This document shows positions 8,331-20,035 of a stretch of 20,287 nt of DNA, piece by piece. The first letter of the stretch is position 1. Each line of letters opens with the position of its first letter. Origin of the DNA: a virus; the IMG/VR virus record IMGVR_UViG_3300001533_000474, positions 1 to 20,287 of that record; one strand, written 5' to 3'. The notes under the pieces are model-generated. The model searched no databases. It saw nothing but the letters and a program-made list of their open reading frames with translations, and was not told the origin of the DNA. Made by a program: the position numbers and the translations under genes.

Positions 8331-9608
8331 TCACTGCTGCCTGGCATTGCGCAAAATCGTCTGAAAGTCGAGGACTATGGGTTCGCCAGGTGCATACGTT
8401 TCATCGTCGAGGATCTTGCCGGTCTTGCCATCGACCAACATAACCCGCTGGCCCGGGTGCTTTACCTGCGCCAGTATCTGCTGCGTCAGTGACGCCACAT
8501 CCAGTTCTGCCGCTTGGCCCGCTGGTCCCGCCTCGCCACGATCCCCCTTCGGACCTTGCGGACCGCGGAATCGATCGTCGCCTTCGATCGTCTGCAGAAT
8601 GGACTCGGTGACTGCCGCTAGATGCATTGCGTTTACGGTGCCGTCAGAACCGTCTCGGCCATCCTTGCCAGCTTGTCCCGCTGGTCCACGGAAACGTTCA
8701 TCGCCCGCCATCTTTTCCAGTACTGCTGCAATGATCGCATCTTGGTCACACTTGCAATTCGGTGACTGCGGGGCACTTGGTACAAGCTCCAGTGCAGGTG
8801 GTTGTGCTGGCGTTGGTTGCCCGCCTGGATACGTCGCCACGCCACCGCCTTGCCTCGGTGCTGGGCAACCCTGTGGTGGACATTGCGAGCCGTAGCCGAT
8901 ACCGGCAATCTGCCCTGCAATTCGATTAGCTCGCCACTGGGCCAAGCGCGGAAACAGCGGGCGGACGAAGACCGTGAATCTCCCCGTCCCGCTCGCCGTT
9001 GTCCGCTGGCCGTCACTTCCCCAAAGGCATCCGATTAGCTGGCCCGCTTCGTTGAATGCCGGCCCGCCCGAATCGCCTGGGATCGCCGCGTTCTCATGCT
9101 CGAACCAATCCCGCGTTGCTGTGCCGCCAGGTCCAGCCCACGAACCAGTCATCCTTCCGCCGAAGATCCGGAAGCCCCGCGCGAAGCCCGCCGAGTACAC
9201 CATTTCGCCCGCTTGCGGGTTGCTGCTCGCGAACTCGACGCCCGTCAGCGTTGGGTGCTCGCGCTCCAGCTCGACCACGCACTGGTCCCACACCTTGTCG
9301 ACCTGAATCACTTTGCAGCTCATCCGCACGCCATCGCGAAATTCAACCGTTCCATTGCCGCTACTGCCTCGAGCCACATGGTAGGCCGTCGCTACGAGCC
9401 GCTCCCCCAGGTAGACGCCGCTGCCTGCGCTAGCCGAGCTGCCCGAAAGCGGGAAACGAATCTGCACCGCGTTGGCCGCTGCCTGCTCAACCGGTCGAGT
9501 CGCCGTCTCTTGCACTCGCCACTGTGTCAGCCCGCGATCGTCCGCGACGTCCTGGGCAGCCGCCAGGCCGCAAAGCAGCATCGTGATAATCAGTAGCGAA
9601 CGTATCAT
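8331..9608 (-). CDS. Exported trypsin-like serine protease with collagen-like repeats
   Basis: Residues 1-19 form a signal peptide (MIRSLLIITMLLCGLAAAQ). Residues 45-230 match the S1/chymotrypsin fold: the catalytic triad is readable as His77 in ATAYHV, Asp108 in VWDQCVVEL and Ser180 in PGDSGGPAF. A Pro/Gln-rich linker with CPPQGCP follows. Two copies of a helix-plus-GDxRFRGP unit come next, each leading into Gly-X-Y collagen triplets (GPAGQAGKDGRDGSDG and GPQGPKGDRGEAGPAG). The C-terminus is a small globular piece. The enzyme would act outside the cytoplasm, on periplasmic, envelope or surface proteins, and may trimerise through the collagen units. It starts with an ATGA overlap on the DUF1353 gene. 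Whether it is a lysis, virion or secreted factor is inferred only. Confidence 0.88.
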   Translation of the reverse strand: MIRSLLIITMLLCGLAAAQDVADDRGLTQWRVQETATRPVEQAAANAVQIRFPLSGSSASAGSGVYLGERLVATAYHVARGSSGNGTVEFRDGVRMSCKVIQVDKVWDQCVVELEREHPTLTGVEFASSNPQAGEMVYSAGFARGFRIFGGRMTGSWAGPGGTATRDWFEHENAAIPGDSGGPAFNEAGQLIGCLWGSDGQRTTASGTGRFTVFVRPLFPRLAQWRANRIAGQIAGIGYGSQCPPQGCPAPRQGGGVATYPGGQPTPAQPPALELVPSAPQSPNCKCDQDAIIAAVLEKMAGDERFRGPAGQAGKDGRDGSDGTVNAMHLAAVTESILQTIEGDDRFRGPQGPKGDRGEAGPAGQAAELDVASLTQQILAQVKHPGQRVMLVDGKTGKILDDETYAPGEPIVLDFQTILRNARQQ

Positions 9609-13112: not shown

Positions 13113-13118
13113 AAAAAA

Positions 13119-13296
13119 CCTTGCCTTGCCCTGCCGAGCCGTGCCATGCCCAGCCGCGCCGTGCCCAGCCGCGCCGCAAAGACCACAGCGACCTATTCGC
13201 CCGCAATGGCCTAACCATGCCTAGCCTTGCCCAGCCGCGCCGTGCCCTGCCATGCCCTGCCTTGCCAAGCCTTGCCTTGCCGTGCCTTGCCATGCC
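13119..13296 (-). repeat. GGCNN pentanucleotide array A
   Basis: Read on the minus strand, the entire gap between two genes consists of GGC followed by two variable bases, repeated with a strict 5-base period. The array begins directly after the TAA stop at 13297 and ends in AAGG before the next start. The only interruption is the 44-bp core at 13178-13221. A 5-base period shifts codon frame each unit, so this is not coding sequence, although all frames are largely open. Confidence 0.8.
13178..13221. repeat. 44-bp core repeat, copy 1
   Basis: This non-pentameric segment, starting AAAGACCACAGCGACC and ending CTAACCATGCC on the plus strand, is identical to 13837-13880. GCGA and TCGC inside it could form a small hairpin. 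It sits in the middle of a GGCNN array in both places. Confidence 0.85.
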
Positions 13297-13743
13297 TTAT
13301 CTCTTCAACACCTTAACCACTTTTCGCGGTTCTTCCGGTGTAATATCTCGCCTGACTGTTTTAAGCATTGTGAGAATCCGCGATTGCCTGATGATTGCCT
13401 TGCTGTGATCCTCTCTTGCTTCCTTGCCTAGCTCACCAACGTCAACAGCATTCAGACGCCTGTTGCATCGCCGCATTTTGTCAATCGCAAGATCAAATCG
13501 GCTCTCGTTGTATTTGCTTGCTTCCTCATGCGTCAAAACTTGCACTTCGCCGTTGGTTGTGCGAACAGTCAGATGCTTACCAAGTCGCCATAGTGACTTT
13601 TGTATGAAGTCGCCGAGCTGCATCAACGCAAATTGATATGCGTACTCATTGCCAGTTCGCTTAATGCCTACAATACTCTCGCACTCGGACTGCTCAACCG
13701 TTGTACCCGGTTCAAGCACACGAACATCGATGTCAAATTTCAT
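13297..13743 (-). CDS. Phage protein of unknown function, 148 residues
   Basis: The ATG at 13743 is set by AAGGA seven bases upstream; the longer frame to 13845 merely translates repeat sequence. The N-terminus is beta-rich (MKFDIDVRVLEPGTTVEQSE), the middle has GNEYAYQFALMQLGDFIQKS, and the C-terminal half is a long charged helical region (SRFDLAIDKMRRCNRRLNAV, then RREDI-like Arg/Lys/Glu stretches) ending KVVKVLKR. It may bind nucleic acid given its basic end, but no motif proves it. It lies between two pentanucleotide arrays within the recombination/replication cluster, so its gene could have been exchanged as a unit. No family recognised. Confidence 0.65.
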   Translation of the reverse strand: MKFDIDVRVLEPGTTVEQSECESIVGIKRTGNEYAYQFALMQLGDFIQKSLWRLGKHLTVRTTNGEVQVLTHEEASKYNESRFDLAIDKMRRCNRRLNAVDVGELGKEAREDHSKAIIRQSRILTMLKTVRRDITPEEPRKVVKVLKR

Positions 13744-13767
13744 TCCTAGTTCCTTAAAGAGAAAAAA

Positions 13768-13930
13768 CCCTGCCTCGCCTTGCCCCGCCGAGCCTGGCCA
13801 TGCCTGGCCCAGCCGAGCCGTGCCGGGCCGTGCCATAAAGACCACAGCGACCTATTCGCCCGCAATGGCCTAACCATGCCATGCCATGCCAAGCCGCGCC
13901 GTGCCTGGCCGAGCCCAGCCGTGCCCAGCC
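13768..13930 (-). repeat. GGCNN pentanucleotide array B
   Basis: This second array occupies the upstream half of the 311-base gap between 13744 and 14054 and again surrounds a 44-bp core. It ends in GGGTTTTTT before the ribosome site of the 148-residue gene, a near match to the end of arrays A and D. Unit sequences differ from array A while the core does not. Confidence 0.8.
13837..13880. repeat. 44-bp core repeat, copy 2
   Basis: It is identical over all 44 bases to 13178-13221, although the flanking pentamers have diverged. The two copies bracket the 148-residue gene in direct orientation, 659 bases apart. Recombination between them would delete or swap that gene. Confidence 0.85.
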
Positions 13931-13934
13931 TCAA

Positions 13935-13980
13935 TTGACTGCTAGGGATTCGCACCCATGCACGCTCAAGCGACAGTCAA
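13935..13980. other. 46-base folded element between arrays B and C
   Basis: TTGACTG and CAGTCAA form a perfect 7-base outer stem. Inside it are two small hairpins: GGG-ATTCGCA-CCC and CGCT-CA-AGCG. On the minus strand the first loop reads TGCGAAT, similar to a tRNA T-loop. It is the only non-repeat sequence between the two arrays. It may be a structured RNA or a remnant of an insertion. Confidence 0.4.
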
Positions 13981-13983
13981 CAC

Positions 13984-14054
13984 CTTGCCTCGCCTCGCCT
14001 GGCCCCGCCCCGCCCCGCCGAGCCGTGCCCTGCCGGGCCTGGCCATGCCAAGCC
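13984..14054 (-). repeat. GGCNN pentanucleotide array C
   Basis: The array starts immediately after the TAA stop of the 188-residue gene (TAAGGC) and continues with 5-base period to GGCAAGG. It has no 44-bp core. Its start and end match the pattern of the other arrays. Confidence 0.75.
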
Positions 14055-14621
14055 TTATGCCAACTCAAACCGCCCGTAGCGCGGCCTGAAATCTCCTAGC
14101 CCAACCTTCGACCCCGCGTCCTCAATTGCTCGCGAAACATCACTCTCGTTAACCTGCTCGTCGTCGAACGCCAGCACAAACTCCATCGACCACTTGTAGA
14201 AGATCGGCCGAGTCCGCATGACCCGCGAAGTCCCAATGCGAACACCGCGAACATCCCGGTACTGATCGTCGGCCCATAAATCGCTGGCCTTGTCGTACTT
14301 CTTGCCAATGTCCAAGACCGCATCCGAATCAACAAAAACGGCAGATTTAAAAGCCTTGCCGAGCTTCGATTTCTTTGCGCCGTCGTAAACACATGCCTCG
14401 ATGCACGTTGATGGCATGATAATTTTCTGCTCGCCGTTGACATACAGGCCAGCATGCCATTCGATGCGACTCATTTCCGCGTAATCTTCATCCGTCTTTT
14501 TCCGCTTGCCGCTAATCTCCTTCATCTGCCTTGCAAATTTGTTCGTTGGATCTGCTGTTTGCCCGTTGTGCAAGAGCAGTGGACTAACACCGACAATCGA
14601 AACACTTAAATGCTGTAACAT
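14055..14621 (-). CDS. Conserved-type phage protein, 188 residues, possibly RAMP/Cas7-like fold
   Basis: The ATG at 14621 follows GGGAG by five bases. The N-terminus reads SIVGVSPLLLHNGQTADPTN, then KFARQMKEISGKRKKTDEDY, a charged helix. A central segment has QKIIMPSTCIEACVYDGAKK, and the C-terminal third has RGVRIGTSRVMRTRPIFYKW and finally VGLGDFRPRYGRFEL. I associate this layout with a phage protein encoded near recombination genes. The Gly-rich ending and alternating strands recall RAMP (Cas7-like) proteins, but this is a visual similarity only. It sits between a repeat array and the helix-turn-helix gene. A single-strand nucleic-acid binding role is plausible but unproven. Confidence 0.7.
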   Translation of the reverse strand: MLQHLSVSIVGVSPLLLHNGQTADPTNKFARQMKEISGKRKKTDEDYAEMSRIEWHAGLYVNGEQKIIMPSTCIEACVYDGAKKSKLGKAFKSAVFVDSDAVLDIGKKYDKASDLWADDQYRDVRGVRIGTSRVMRTRPIFYKWSMEFVLAFDDEQVNESDVSRAIEDAGSKVGLGDFRPRYGRFELA

Positions 14622-14640
14622 AAAAACTCCCAGTTAAAAA

Positions 14641-14663
14641 ACCTTGCCAAACCTTGCCATGCC
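14641..14663 (-). repeat. Short GGCNN array D
   Basis: Only about four units separate the TAA at 14664 from AAGGTTTTTT ahead of the 188-residue gene. It shares both ends with arrays A-C and seems to be the minimal form of the same element. Confidence 0.65.
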
Positions 14664-15152
14664 TTACCCAGCCGACCGAAATCCGCACGGAACATTCTTT
14701 CGTAACTCCCGCTGATTCAACCCGCTGCGATGGCCGGCATAGTCAACGTCATCAGGATGCCAGAGCTCCTCGTTAGCCTCGGCTCGTCGTCGCAATTCCT
14801 CAATCTTTTCGAGCGAACCGGGTAAGCATCGTGTAGGCGAATCTGGCAATGGACGCGATTTCAGATAAGGCAAATTGTGATACTCCACAAGGTCTTGCAC
14901 TCGCTCCTCGCTAATGTCGTGGTGCATCGCCAGCTCACTAATCGTTTGGAGGTTAGATAGTGTACTGCTGATAAACTGCTGGATATTCAAGCTGTACTGC
15001 AAGACAACCTGATTCCGCCGCAGCACACCACGCAAATAGCCGACGCCGATGCCCAGCGATTTTGCGATTTGGCCGCACGTGTAATTTTCCCCAGCCAGCT
15101 TAATGGCCCTCTCAATAATAAATTCATGCTCAGGGCGTTTCGGTGCATTCAT
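14664..15152 (-). CDS. Helix-turn-helix phage protein, 162 residues
   Basis: Residues 10-45 form a helix-turn-helix (IERAIKLAGENYTCGQIAKS, then LGIGVGYLRGVLRRN). A second helical unit resembling another HTH spans about 60-95 (ISELAMHHDISEERVQDLVE). The C-terminal part includes PGSLEKIEELRRRAEANEEL and WHPDDVD, a pattern seen in small phage proteins beside recombination genes. It probably binds DNA, perhaps as a regulator of this operon. Its ATG overlaps the stop of the previous gene (ATGA). The exact family is not recognised. Confidence 0.65.
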   Translation of the reverse strand: MNAPKRPEHEFIIERAIKLAGENYTCGQIAKSLGIGVGYLRGVLRRNQVVLQYSLNIQQFISSTLSNLQTISELAMHHDISEERVQDLVEYHNLPYLKSRPLPDSPTRCLPGSLEKIEELRRRAEANEELWHPDDVDYAGHRSGLNQRELRKNVPCGFRSAG

Positions 15153-15709: not shown

Positions 15710-16605
15710 AATATCACCTCTGGCGTTTCGCCATCTGTCGTTTCACTATCCCAGTCCATCAACTCTTCTGGCTCCATTTCCCACGGCGGCAAATGGACCA
15801 TCAGCGTCTCGGACCCACCATCGACGCCAGGCCAAACACCCGACGCCATGCACTCCTTGTATCGCTGTAGCTGCTCGCGAATTCGCCGCAATTGAATGTC
15901 GAGTGCAATCTCGGGAACGTCATAAACAACACAGTCATAGTCGCCGCTCGTCTCAACTGCGATCATCTGCACTCGCTCGATTTGGTAGCCGTTTTGGTTA
16001 GCCAACTCTCGATAGAATGCCATCCGAAAACCGTATGCGAGCTTTGAGAACGTACGACCGAATGCTCTTGGTTCGCAGTCGTTTGTTGTTTTCAGGTCTG
16101 CTAGGTATCCAGGCTTTAGCAGGTCCAATTTTCCCTTGCACTCTACGCCGTCGATTTGGCCGAGCAGTACAACCTCCTTGCTACACGAGTGAATTAGCTG
16201 ATCGAGTCCTTTATCGCTGACAGCCTCTTTATCGCTGACAGCCTCCACGCACATAATAATGCGATCCATGTCGTACCGCGATAAGATTTTGCGTCCTTGA
16301 TTCTCTCGCGCAAACTGCTCGACGCTCTGCTTGTAATAGCTGGTCGCCTTGCTATTCGTGCCCTTGCCGCCCTGGGTGACATTCGCACCATCGCGATGAA
16401 AATCAGGCATGACAACGTATTGAGTGTTGAACTTGTCTGGCTCAAGAATCGCCATGTGGACCGCTGTCCCAAACTCCATGTCCGGTGTAACGATTCGCGA
16501 TTGCGGCTCTGTCATCATCCGCCGCATCCGCTTCATCGATCGCAGGCTGTGGACCAGCGTTGAAGCGTTCATGTGCGGCAATGCTCGGTAGGTTGATTCG
16601 TCCAT
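15706..16605 (-). CDS. RecB-like PD-(D/E)XK exonuclease
   Basis: The ATG at 16605 has AGGGAG five bases upstream; the longer frame to 16689 would run into the HAD gene. The 299-residue product begins with YRALPHMNASTLVHSLRSMK, then the family motif FGTAVHMAILEPDKF with His50. The nuclease core follows: KEVVLLGQIDGVECKGKLDL (Glu144, Asp161), then LADLKTT with Asp170 and Lys172, then a Tyr-rich helix ending YGFRMAFYRE. These are the metal ligands and Lys of the RecB-type nuclease fold. Phage enzymes of this class resect DNA ends for homologous recombination. An internal tandem duplication adds a second EAVSDK near residue 126. Confidence 0.88.
   Translation of the reverse strand: MDESTYRALPHMNASTLVHSLRSMKRMRRMMTEPQSRIVTPDMEFGTAVHMAILEPDKFNTQYVVMPDFHRDGANVTQGGKGTNSKATSYYKQSVEQFARENQGRKILSRYDMDRIIMCVEAVSDKEAVSDKGLDQLIHSCSKEVVLLGQIDGVECKGKLDLLKPGYLADLKTTNDCEPRAFGRTFSKLAYGFRMAFYRELANQNGYQIERVQMIAVETSGDYDCVVYDVPEIALDIQLRRIREQLQRYKECMASGVWPGVDGGSETLMVHLPPWEMEPEELMDWDSETTDGETPEVIF
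16210..16245. repeat. Perfect 18-bp tandem duplication inside the exonuclease gene
   Basis: Units 16210-16227 and 16228-16245 are identical. The duplication is in frame and yields EAVSDKEAVSDK in a helical region before the catalytic core, so the enzyme should stay intact. It looks like a recent replication-slippage event. Confidence 0.85.
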
Positions 16606-17820: not shown

Positions 17821-18092
17821 TTTTTCTTCTTGCCCCGTTTCTTTGTTGGTGATTTCTTACCTCGCCACTGCAACTCTTTGTCTGGATTGTTCTCCCTCAT
17901 GGCTTGCAGTAACATTGCATTCGCCAAGCTCATGCCCATCAGAAAATGTTGGTTGTAGGTATTTACCGCATCTGGAAGTTCGTCGCTTGGTTGTCGCTTT
18001 TCTACCTCCTCCTTAAACACTTTTGCGTACTGCATTAGAGCAGCCTCAAACGCCATGCATTCACTTAGCAGATCCGCCATTTTTTCATCCAT
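17817..18092 (-). CDS. Small helical phage protein, 91 residues
   Basis: The protein is helical and acidic at first (MDEKMADLLSECMAFEAALM), with a middle segment HFLMGMSLANAMLLQAMREN and a strongly basic tail (KKSPTKKRGKKKK). The middle segment is almost identical, in protein and DNA, to a 41-residue protein encoded at 19910-20035, so both share an ancestor. No family or activity is recognised. A second ATG at codon 5 may be the true start, since GGA lies eight bases before it. The basic tail would suit nucleic-acid binding. Confidence 0.6.
   Translation of the reverse strand: MDEKMADLLSECMAFEAALMQYAKVFKEEVEKRQPSDELPDAVNTYNQHFLMGMSLANAMLLQAMRENNPDKELQWRGKKSPTKKRGKKKK
17881..17939. repeat. 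Dispersed 59-bp near-identical repeat, copy 1
   Basis: These bases match 19941-19999 with two differences: one synonymous (Leu codons) and one changing Ser to Asn. The repeat encodes the shared NAMLLQAMRENNPD segment of two small genes. Confidence 0.85.
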
Positions 18093-18515: not shown

Positions 18516-18705
18516 CACGTCCCTCTCTGGGTAAATCAGGTAACTCAATCCAATGCGTAACAATTCCCCCGCAATGCCACTCGCCACTCGGCAGCATGTG
18601 CGACACAATCATTGTCTCGTTCGGCCGCAGCACCAGCACATCAACCTCCGCTTCTGGTCTGTACAGCTTTGCGTCCATCCAATCTGGGTCATACCACTGC
18701 ATCAT
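18502..18705 (-). CDS. DUF551-like small phage protein
   Basis: The 67-residue product has the short pattern EVDVLVLRPNETMIVSHMLP, then GGIVTHWIELPDLPREG. The combination of a strand ending in V, a Gly/Trp-containing turn and THWxxLPxLP resembles the DUF551 family, small phage proteins of unknown activity. AGGTGCAAC before the ATG supports the start. It overlaps the Gly-rich repeat gene by 17 bases and the next gene by 14, so it is part of a continuous early operon. Confidence 0.65.
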   Translation of the reverse strand: MMQWYDPDWMDAKLYRPEAEVDVLVLRPNETMIVSHMLPSGEWHCGGIVTHWIELPDLPREGRDEAE

Positions 18706-19219
18706 GTTGCACCTTTTTTAAGATTTCATCGACCTGCTCTTGTGTGATCTCGACATCATGCGACTCCGCAATGGACTTCCATCGCTTTCGCCATTCAGCG
18801 ACAGACCATGTTTGGCAGCCAATCACGACAATCTGGAACACCCTGATGAACAGGACAGTGTGCCCAGCGATTTCCGTGATCACATCGCCGTAGCCGTGGC
18901 CGTAGCCGTCGCCGTCGCCGTGGCCGTGGCCGTGGCCGGAGCCGTAGCCGTAGCCGTAGCCGGAGCCGTCGCCGTAGCCGGAGCCGTAGCCGGAGCCGTA
19001 GCCGTCGACGTCGCCGGAGCCGTAGCCGTCGCCGGAGCCGGAGCCGGAGCCGTCGCCGGAGCCGTAGCCGTAGCCGTAGCCGGAGCCGTAGCCGGAGCCG
19101 TCGCCGGCTACGGAGCCGTGGCCGTAGCCGTAGCCGGAGCCGGAGCCGGAGCCGGAGCCGTAGCCGGAGCCGGAGCTGTAGCCGGAGCCGGAGCCGGAGC
19201 CAGTTAGCAAGCTTTCCAT
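18689..19219 (-). CDS. Gly-X dipeptide repeat protein with conserved C-terminus
   Basis: After MESLLT the first 110 residues are Gly alternating with Ser, Tyr, Asp or His (GSGSGY, GYGYGHG, GDGSGSGSG and similar). The last 60 residues are ordered: ITEIAGHTVLFIRVFQIVVI, then GCQTWSVAEWRKRWKSIAES and a closing helix. Proteins with a GxGxGxG repeat joined to a domain with IGCxxxxxxxWxxxWxxIA occur in phages, without known activity. The Tyr/Ser/Gly-rich part could self-associate or form a flexible condensate-like phase; that is inference. It is encoded by a tandem repeat prone to length change. GAGG lies about ten bases before the ATG. Confidence 0.7.
   Translation of the reverse strand: MESLLTGSGSGSGYSSGSGYGSGSGSGSGYGYGHGSVAGDGSGYGSGYGYGYGSGDGSGSGSGDGYGSGDVDGYGSGYGSGYGDGSGYGYGYGSGHGHGHGDGDGYGHGYGDVITEIAGHTVLFIRVFQIVVIGCQTWSVAEWRKRWKSIAESHDVEITQEQVDEILKKVQHDAVV
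18887..19200 (-). repeat. Hexanucleotide tandem repeat encoding Gly-X
   Basis: About 52 six-base units run continuously. On the minus strand each is GGC plus TAC, TCC, GAC or CAC, so Gly is fixed and only the first two bases of the second codon vary. A few units depart from this set (GTC, AGC, GCC). Six-base units keep frame when copies are gained or lost, so length variation would not abolish the gene. Confidence 0.9.
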
Positions 19220-19913: not shown

Positions 19914-20035
19914 CTTTGGATAGTCCCTGTTGATGTCGTGTCTGGATTGTTCTCCCTCATGGCTTGCAGCAACATTGCATTCGCCAAGTTCATGCCCATG
20001 TATTCGCGGATTAATTGTTGTGACTTTGTGCTCAT
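19910..20035 (-). CDS. 41-residue protein, partial paralogue of the 91-residue gene
   Basis: Both ends overlap neighbours by four bases (ATGA), strong support for translation. The product starts MSTKSQQLIREYMGMNLANA and shares NAMLLQAMRENNPD with the protein at 17817-18092, but lacks its acidic N-terminus and basic tail. GGTGA lies seven bases before the ATG. It is probably a duplicated helical module; function unknown. Confidence 0.7.
   Translation of the reverse strand: MSTKSQQLIREYMGMNLANAMLLQAMRENNPDTTSTGTIQR
19941..19999. repeat. Dispersed 59-bp near-identical repeat, copy 2
   Basis: This is the second copy of the segment at 17881-17939, in the same orientation and about 2.06 kb away. 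The two substitutions in 59 bases indicate recent duplication or gene conversion. Confidence 0.85.

Follow-up and report, generated by a model that had tools for sequence, protein, structure and literature searches.

VIPR, first described in a 2026 preprint (PMC13142463), is a phage-encoded relative of CRISPR that is built on the RAMP protein Vipr and has been proposed as an ancestor of the CRISPR RAMP systems. In the account given in the preprint's main text, its vrRNA consists of 9-16 YNNGG units, in which GGY is fixed and NN varies, followed by an invariable structured 3' tail, and the loci carry vap accessory genes. For Escherichia phage SUSP1 (phiSUSP1; KT454805) the same text reports experiments in which the arrays are transcribed to RNAs of approximately 100 nt that co-purify with Vipr, and in which genes of competing phages are repressed through a 1-nt-skip reading of double-stranded DNA by the NN letters. 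The RNA tails are the least explored part of VIPR.

Here we analyze a stretch of 20,287 nucleotides, the window, which is an entire linear IMG/VR contig. An earlier note had pointed to an identical 44-bp core inside two pentamer arrays that bracket a single gene, and had suggested functional constraint, recent copying or gene conversion of the core, and a repeat-gene-repeat cassette that could be excised or exchanged. We conclude, with a probability of about 0.92, that the region is a phage VIPR locus, in which the core represents, for two guide RNAs (A2 and A4 in Table 1), the final repeats together with the tail. The two 44-bp stretches are probably part of an RNA and not the ends of a mobile gene cassette. 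The conclusion is based on what we computed: the fold and family of the protein, the structure of the arrays, the association between arrays and vipr, the vap1 family, and the covariation of the hairpin. An odd repeat noticed from sequence alone has in this way led back to such a system.

Results

The 44-bp core and its arrays

Both copies of the core lie where they had been reported (Table 1), they agree in 44 of 44 bases, and they are the only two sites in the whole record when up to three mismatches are allowed. The match stops with the core: not even one further base is shared on either side. A chance origin of an exact 44-base repeat within 20 kb is not expected. The database search that had been proposed as a check found no match to a 31-mer from the core in any other IMG/VR contig, and no match to a 29-mer among 84,980 genomes.

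Because the surrounding genes all lie on the minus strand, the core is to be read on that strand, as GGCATGGTTAGGCCATTGCGGGCGAATAGGTCGCTGTGGTCTTT. On the same, coding strand the pentamers are GGC-NN units that form five arrays, with a shorter GGY array upstream, and the arrays span from just past a stop codon to just ahead of the next start codon. Two features had been overlooked: similar arrays also flank the neighbouring gene, filling the intergenic space on each side, and the core itself holds GGY units, each copy including the last three of its array. Half of the six arrays (A3, A5 and the upstream one, in the last case at 14636-14643) are closed by GGTTTTTT directly before a gene start, without a recognisable tail. 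The arrays are of low complexity, and TRF resolves them into higher-order units that are 10, 15 and 20 bases long. The pentamers around the core have indeed diverged, as the earlier note held: when the flanking arrays are aligned on the core, their NN letters match at 18 of 42 positions, which is near random given the 12.6 expected from permutations (p = 0.04), and the slight excess hints at a duplication of the whole unit.

Table 1. Features of the locus, with positions in the window.
Feature	Positions	Strand	Description or basis
44-bp core copy 1	13178-13221	-	Last repeat units and hairpin tail of array A4; hairpin 13181-13211
44-bp core copy 2	13837-13880	-	Last repeat units and hairpin tail of array A2; hairpin 13840-13870
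Guide array A5	13121-13175	-	11 strict units; ends GGTTTTTT (13113-13120) ahead of the next start codon
Guide array A4	13217-13296	-	16 strict units, 18 including two in the core; begins right after the vap1 stop codon
vap1-family accessory gene	13297-13743	-	148 aa; profile-profile match, iterated HMM, identity to the L241 gene
Guide array A3	13770-13834	-	13 strict units; ends GGTTTTTT (13762-13769) ahead of the vap1 start
Guide array A2	13876-13930	-	11 strict units, 13 including two in the core
Tail A, after array A1	13931-13984	-	7-bp acceptor-like stem TTGACTG/CAGTCAA and T-arm-like GGGTGCGAATCCC; tRNA-like, degenerate; read from sequence
Guide array A1	13985-14054	-	14 GGC-NN units; begins right after the vipr stop codon
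vipr	14055-14621	-	Cas7/Csm3-like RAMP protein, 188 aa, phrog_4652; profile, identity, predicted structure
Short upstream GGY-NN array	14639-14673	-	7 units

A pattern scan of IMG/VR found such arrays in at least 120 contigs, so they are common. Among the matches listed, which were caught by the array pattern only, a phrog_4652 (vipr) gene lies near the arrays in 86 of 120 contigs, nearly always on the same strand, and among the matches listed with degenerate NN in 80 of 108. The 118 bacterial contigs that we scored divide in the same direction, vipr being present in 5 of 8 with degenerate NN arrays and in 0 of 110 with monotonous repeats, and unrelated viral contigs have it in 0 of 32. The association also holds in reverse: with 78 vipr genes identified only from the protein, GG recurs downstream at lags of 5, 10, 15 and 20 (2.2-2.5 times), and no such series is seen for CC on the same strand or in coding sequence.

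Some relatives look different. By eye, in L244, L251 and L260-L320 looser GGY arrays, broken by long repeated hairpins that give them a CRISPR-like look, follow the vipr genes, and in many of these loci an HNH-like ORF precedes vipr. In Listonella phage phiHSIC (L322, 3080-3440) a vipr homologue is adjoined by GCANN-like pentamers, whose fixed triplet is other than that of GGYNN.

Genes of the locus

The product of the gene upstream of array A1 matches phrog_4652 with E = 1.4e-60, and is 38% identical over 187 aa (E = 8e-47) to the Vipr of phiSUSP1, which belongs to the same phrog; the Vipr proteins of the related contigs L241 and L242 are 70% identical to it. Its AlphaFold model has a pLDDT of 96.6, and the best matches of the model in the PDB are all CRISPR RAMPs (Csm3, Cmr4, Cas7-11 and type VII Cas7), with a Foldseek E of 3e-6 and a VIA Z of up to 11.1 over the full length. 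The invariant or near-invariant residues include a C-terminal G-x-G-D-x-R-P...G-R-F loop. A family with 129 phage-collection records that is listed as function unknown in PHROGs thereby gains a probable role. Apart from this Cas7-like protein, no cas gene was found among the neighbouring proteins scanned. The 162-aa gene directly upstream of vipr (14664-15152) has a weak helix-turn-helix similarity; we considered it as a vap candidate and set it aside, as it has no relatives in the loci compared.

The two cores enclose a single gene, of 148 residues, as the earlier note had said. Direct searches of viral contigs and phages returned no relatives of its product, which was reached only via a profile of vipr-adjacent genes. 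Profile-profile comparison (hhalign) places it with the vap1 family of phiSUSP1 at a probability of 95.9% (E = 5.5e-9), and iterated HMM searches make the same link. In the nearest relative, L241, the gene beside vipr is 51-53% identical to it, and genes of the vap1 family are found amid guide arrays in many phages. The structural model of the window protein has a pLDDT of 94.7 and no match in the PDB better than E = 0.5, so the DNA binding proposed for vap1 receives no confirmation from structure. L241 and L242, the nearest relatives, carry vap1 and vipr in the opposite order, with arrays to either side. This speaks weakly for past shuffling, in which array-flanked genes were rearranged at some time, with no evidence of excision here.

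A covarying hairpin in the core

The tail of the core is a hairpin of 31 nt, with 10 bp in the stem and 11 nt in the loop, RGYGAAUARGU. Folding the core, another check that had been proposed, gives -17.1 kcal/mol for the window copies (z = -2.3). In L241 and L242 hairpins that share this loop but have other stems break up the arrays, and an IMG/VR scan for the loop next to an array, in which the protein was ignored, added one contig, L327, that encodes vipr and two more such hairpins; the remaining three new matches of that scan have neither vipr nor such a stem. The seven distinct hairpins align without gaps, 98.6% of the stem cells are paired, and all 10 stem pairs have been changed on both sides in some sequence. 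This count leans towards the structure to the extent that the hairpins were partly found by seeking it, though those of L241 and L242 had been noticed in the arrays ahead of any search by structure, and the scan that found L327 fixed the loop and the array alone. The covariation is 1.195, compared with 0.366 after shuffling and at most 0.43 when the alignment is slid. Where the loop occurs outside the hairpin set in the other loci compared, 0-8 of the 10 positions pair.

The functional constraint that had been suggested for the core is thus supported at the level of RNA: in relatives the loop is conserved, and the two strands of the stem change in concert. This class of tail is kept in four contigs, namely the window, L241, L242 (which is the same contig as L325) and L327, and a model of the tail found nothing beyond them above the E = 0.5 limit in 100 mostly vipr-bearing loci. 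Rfam returned nothing on the region at E ≤ 5.

A tRNA-like tail

Array A1 ends differently, in tail A (Table 1). Its predicted fold is no better than that of shuffled sequences (z = -0.81), so tail A alone proves little. Similar tails are however seen in L016, L079, L241 and L320, and a strict scan for a 7-bp acceptor joined directly to a canonical T-arm gave seven matches within 110 bases after GGYNN arrays (53.7 kb in all), compared with three in 3.47 Mb elsewhere. The seven are in L016, L079 (twice), L320, L241, L242 and L325, the last two being one contig. tRNA-like elements thus appear strongly enriched just 3' of GGYNN arrays, which makes the maturation of the guide RNAs testable. Rfam and ARAGORN, run on at least seven loci with tRNA-like tails, gave weak or odd calls alone, among them mascRNA in L089 at 22 bits, which is under the gathering score. 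By eye, L089 and L215 also have minihelices like these 3' of their arrays.

Guide targets and other features of the window

Scanning IMG/VR with a 1-nt skip for the eight-dinucleotide cores of guides A1, A2 and A4 gave 6, 7 and 19 matches, none of them beyond chance outside the seed. With 344 guides against 2.6 Mb of DNA, which is a small search space, the 1-nt skip was not superior to other skips or to shuffled guides.

The window contains other repeats. A 61-bp direct repeat (17879-17939 and 19939-19999, 97% identical and 2,060 bases apart) lies in coding sequence (QAMRENNPD) and is a partial gene duplication. A 52-copy GCCGTA hexamer array at 18887-19201, unlike the pentamers, is part of a minus-strand ORF (18689-19219) rich in Gly, Ser and Tyr, and a perfect 18-bp tandem duplication (16209-16244) is in frame in an exonuclease VIII-like gene. 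At 8331-9608 a protein is encoded in which a trypsin-like protease domain is followed by collagen-like repeats.

Discussion

The most coherent picture that we can draw is one in which the locus combines a single-domain RAMP, Vipr, a vap1-family protein, and several vrRNAs from same-strand intergenic spaces, each vrRNA consisting of consecutive GGY-NN units and then a 3' tail. The tail would serve as a constant handle and the NN letters as the guide, which would explain that the core is identical while the flanking NN differ. By analogy with the experiments on SUSP1 (PMC13142463), as its main text presents them, the arrays would be transcribed and bound by Vipr, and the NN letters would direct the repression of competing phages' genes by a 1-nt-skip reading of double-stranded DNA. 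We infer further that the loop may be the point on the tail that is recognized by Vipr or by an RNA-processing enzyme. Identical tails within one phage, with varying NN around them, are the VIPR pattern. The covarying tail with its fixed loop provides, in the four contigs that have it, ready compensatory stem variants for testing the role of the handle.

The suggestion that the core was recently copied or converted remains likely, given that the copies are identical in the contig and that tails also repeat within other loci of the VIPR kind. The two copies may have been kept identical by recent duplication, by conversion or by selection.

The excisable cassette is not supported by the same data. 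If the cores were direct repeats at which homologous or site-specific recombination removes or swaps the 148-residue gene, identical 44-bp repeats on either side of one gene would be accounted for, and the reversed gene order in L241 and L242 also fits. But the bracketed gene is an accessory gene of the very system to which the arrays belong, the core has evolved in the manner of an RNA hairpin, through compensatory changes that a DNA recombination site does not need, and in L241, L242 and L327 the hairpins of this class are not consistently placed on both sides of a vap1-family gene. No gene-less junction was seen, no other contig carries the core, and no recombinase was recognised beside the gene among the part of the window's genes that was scanned against family libraries. 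We therefore consider this explanation very improbable. A neutral expansion of tandem repeats, in which the arrays and the core are functionless products of slippage, is harder still to believe: it would predict the low complexity and the higher-order units found by TRF, but not the strict strand agreement and closeness to vipr in scores of unrelated phages, nor the pattern in which GGY is fixed and NN varied, nor the covariation of the tail. We also checked whether arrays are equally frequent with and without vipr, and found the opposite, that they are commoner with it.

An explanation closer to the RNA reading is that the hairpin acts mainly as an intrinsic terminator, or as a processing hairpin between array transcripts, without any contact with Vipr. 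The GC-rich stem of 10 bp, the folding energy of the window copies and the TTTTTT that follows one of the L327 copies are what a terminator would have; the window copies precede just TTTAT or TTTGC, however, and the L242 copy ATTGTTA, and the conserved part is the sequence of the 11-nt loop, which terminators do not need. We regard it as unlikely for these reasons, and note that terminating or processing could be combined with a role as tail.

Returning to the reading of the core as a guide-RNA tail, a tentative extension, for which we would give somewhat less than even odds, is that the tails of vrRNAs belong to several structural classes, of which at least two would be present in the window locus, the stem-variable hairpin with its fixed loop and the minihelix of tRNA-like acceptor and T-arm. 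Through the minihelix, the host's RNase P or RNase Z would be brought in to define the 3' end of the guide RNA. A parallel for the setting of a 3' end by tRNA-processing enzymes is the MALAT1 RNA, which ends in a tRNA-like element. Both tail classes go beyond the main text of the VIPR preprint, in which tRNA is not mentioned (PMC13142463), and the tRNA-like class may be new.

Comparison with known systems

The closest system is that of SUSP1. Besides a Vipr of the same phrog, both have a vap1-family gene and same-strand GGY-NN arrays up- and downstream, capped by a repeated structured 3' tail, and the strict arrays of the window, all on the vipr strand, are within the 9-16 tandem units described for VIPR. 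An invariable structured tail follows two of them, with a different one after A1. The units are mostly GGT in SUSP1 and almost all GGC in the window, and vap1 adjoins vipr in SUSP1 whereas three arrays separate the two genes in the window. The SUSP1 tail is reported in the main text of the preprint as a pseudoknot (PMC13142463); the window tail bears no visible resemblance to it, and a plain 10-bp hairpin with a conserved loop accounts well for the window tail, while another tail is tRNA-like.

With the RAMPs of class 1 CRISPR systems (Csm3, Cmr4, Cas7-11) the window shares a Cas7-like fold, the C-terminal glycine-rich loop GLGDFRPRYGRF and an array of RNA repeats beside the gene, but it has a lone 188-aa domain and no other cas gene recognised nearby. 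We also considered a CRISPR-Cas locus proper and rejected it, the units being 5-nt GGY-NN, without CRISPR repeats or contiguous spacers. Type III toxin-antitoxin (ToxIN) loci and RNA anti-CRISPRs are likewise small phage loci in which a protein is paired with short tandem RNA repeats, as here. Compared with ToxIN, the window encodes a RAMP fold rather than a ToxN-like fold, and its arrays are degenerate at two of the five positions.
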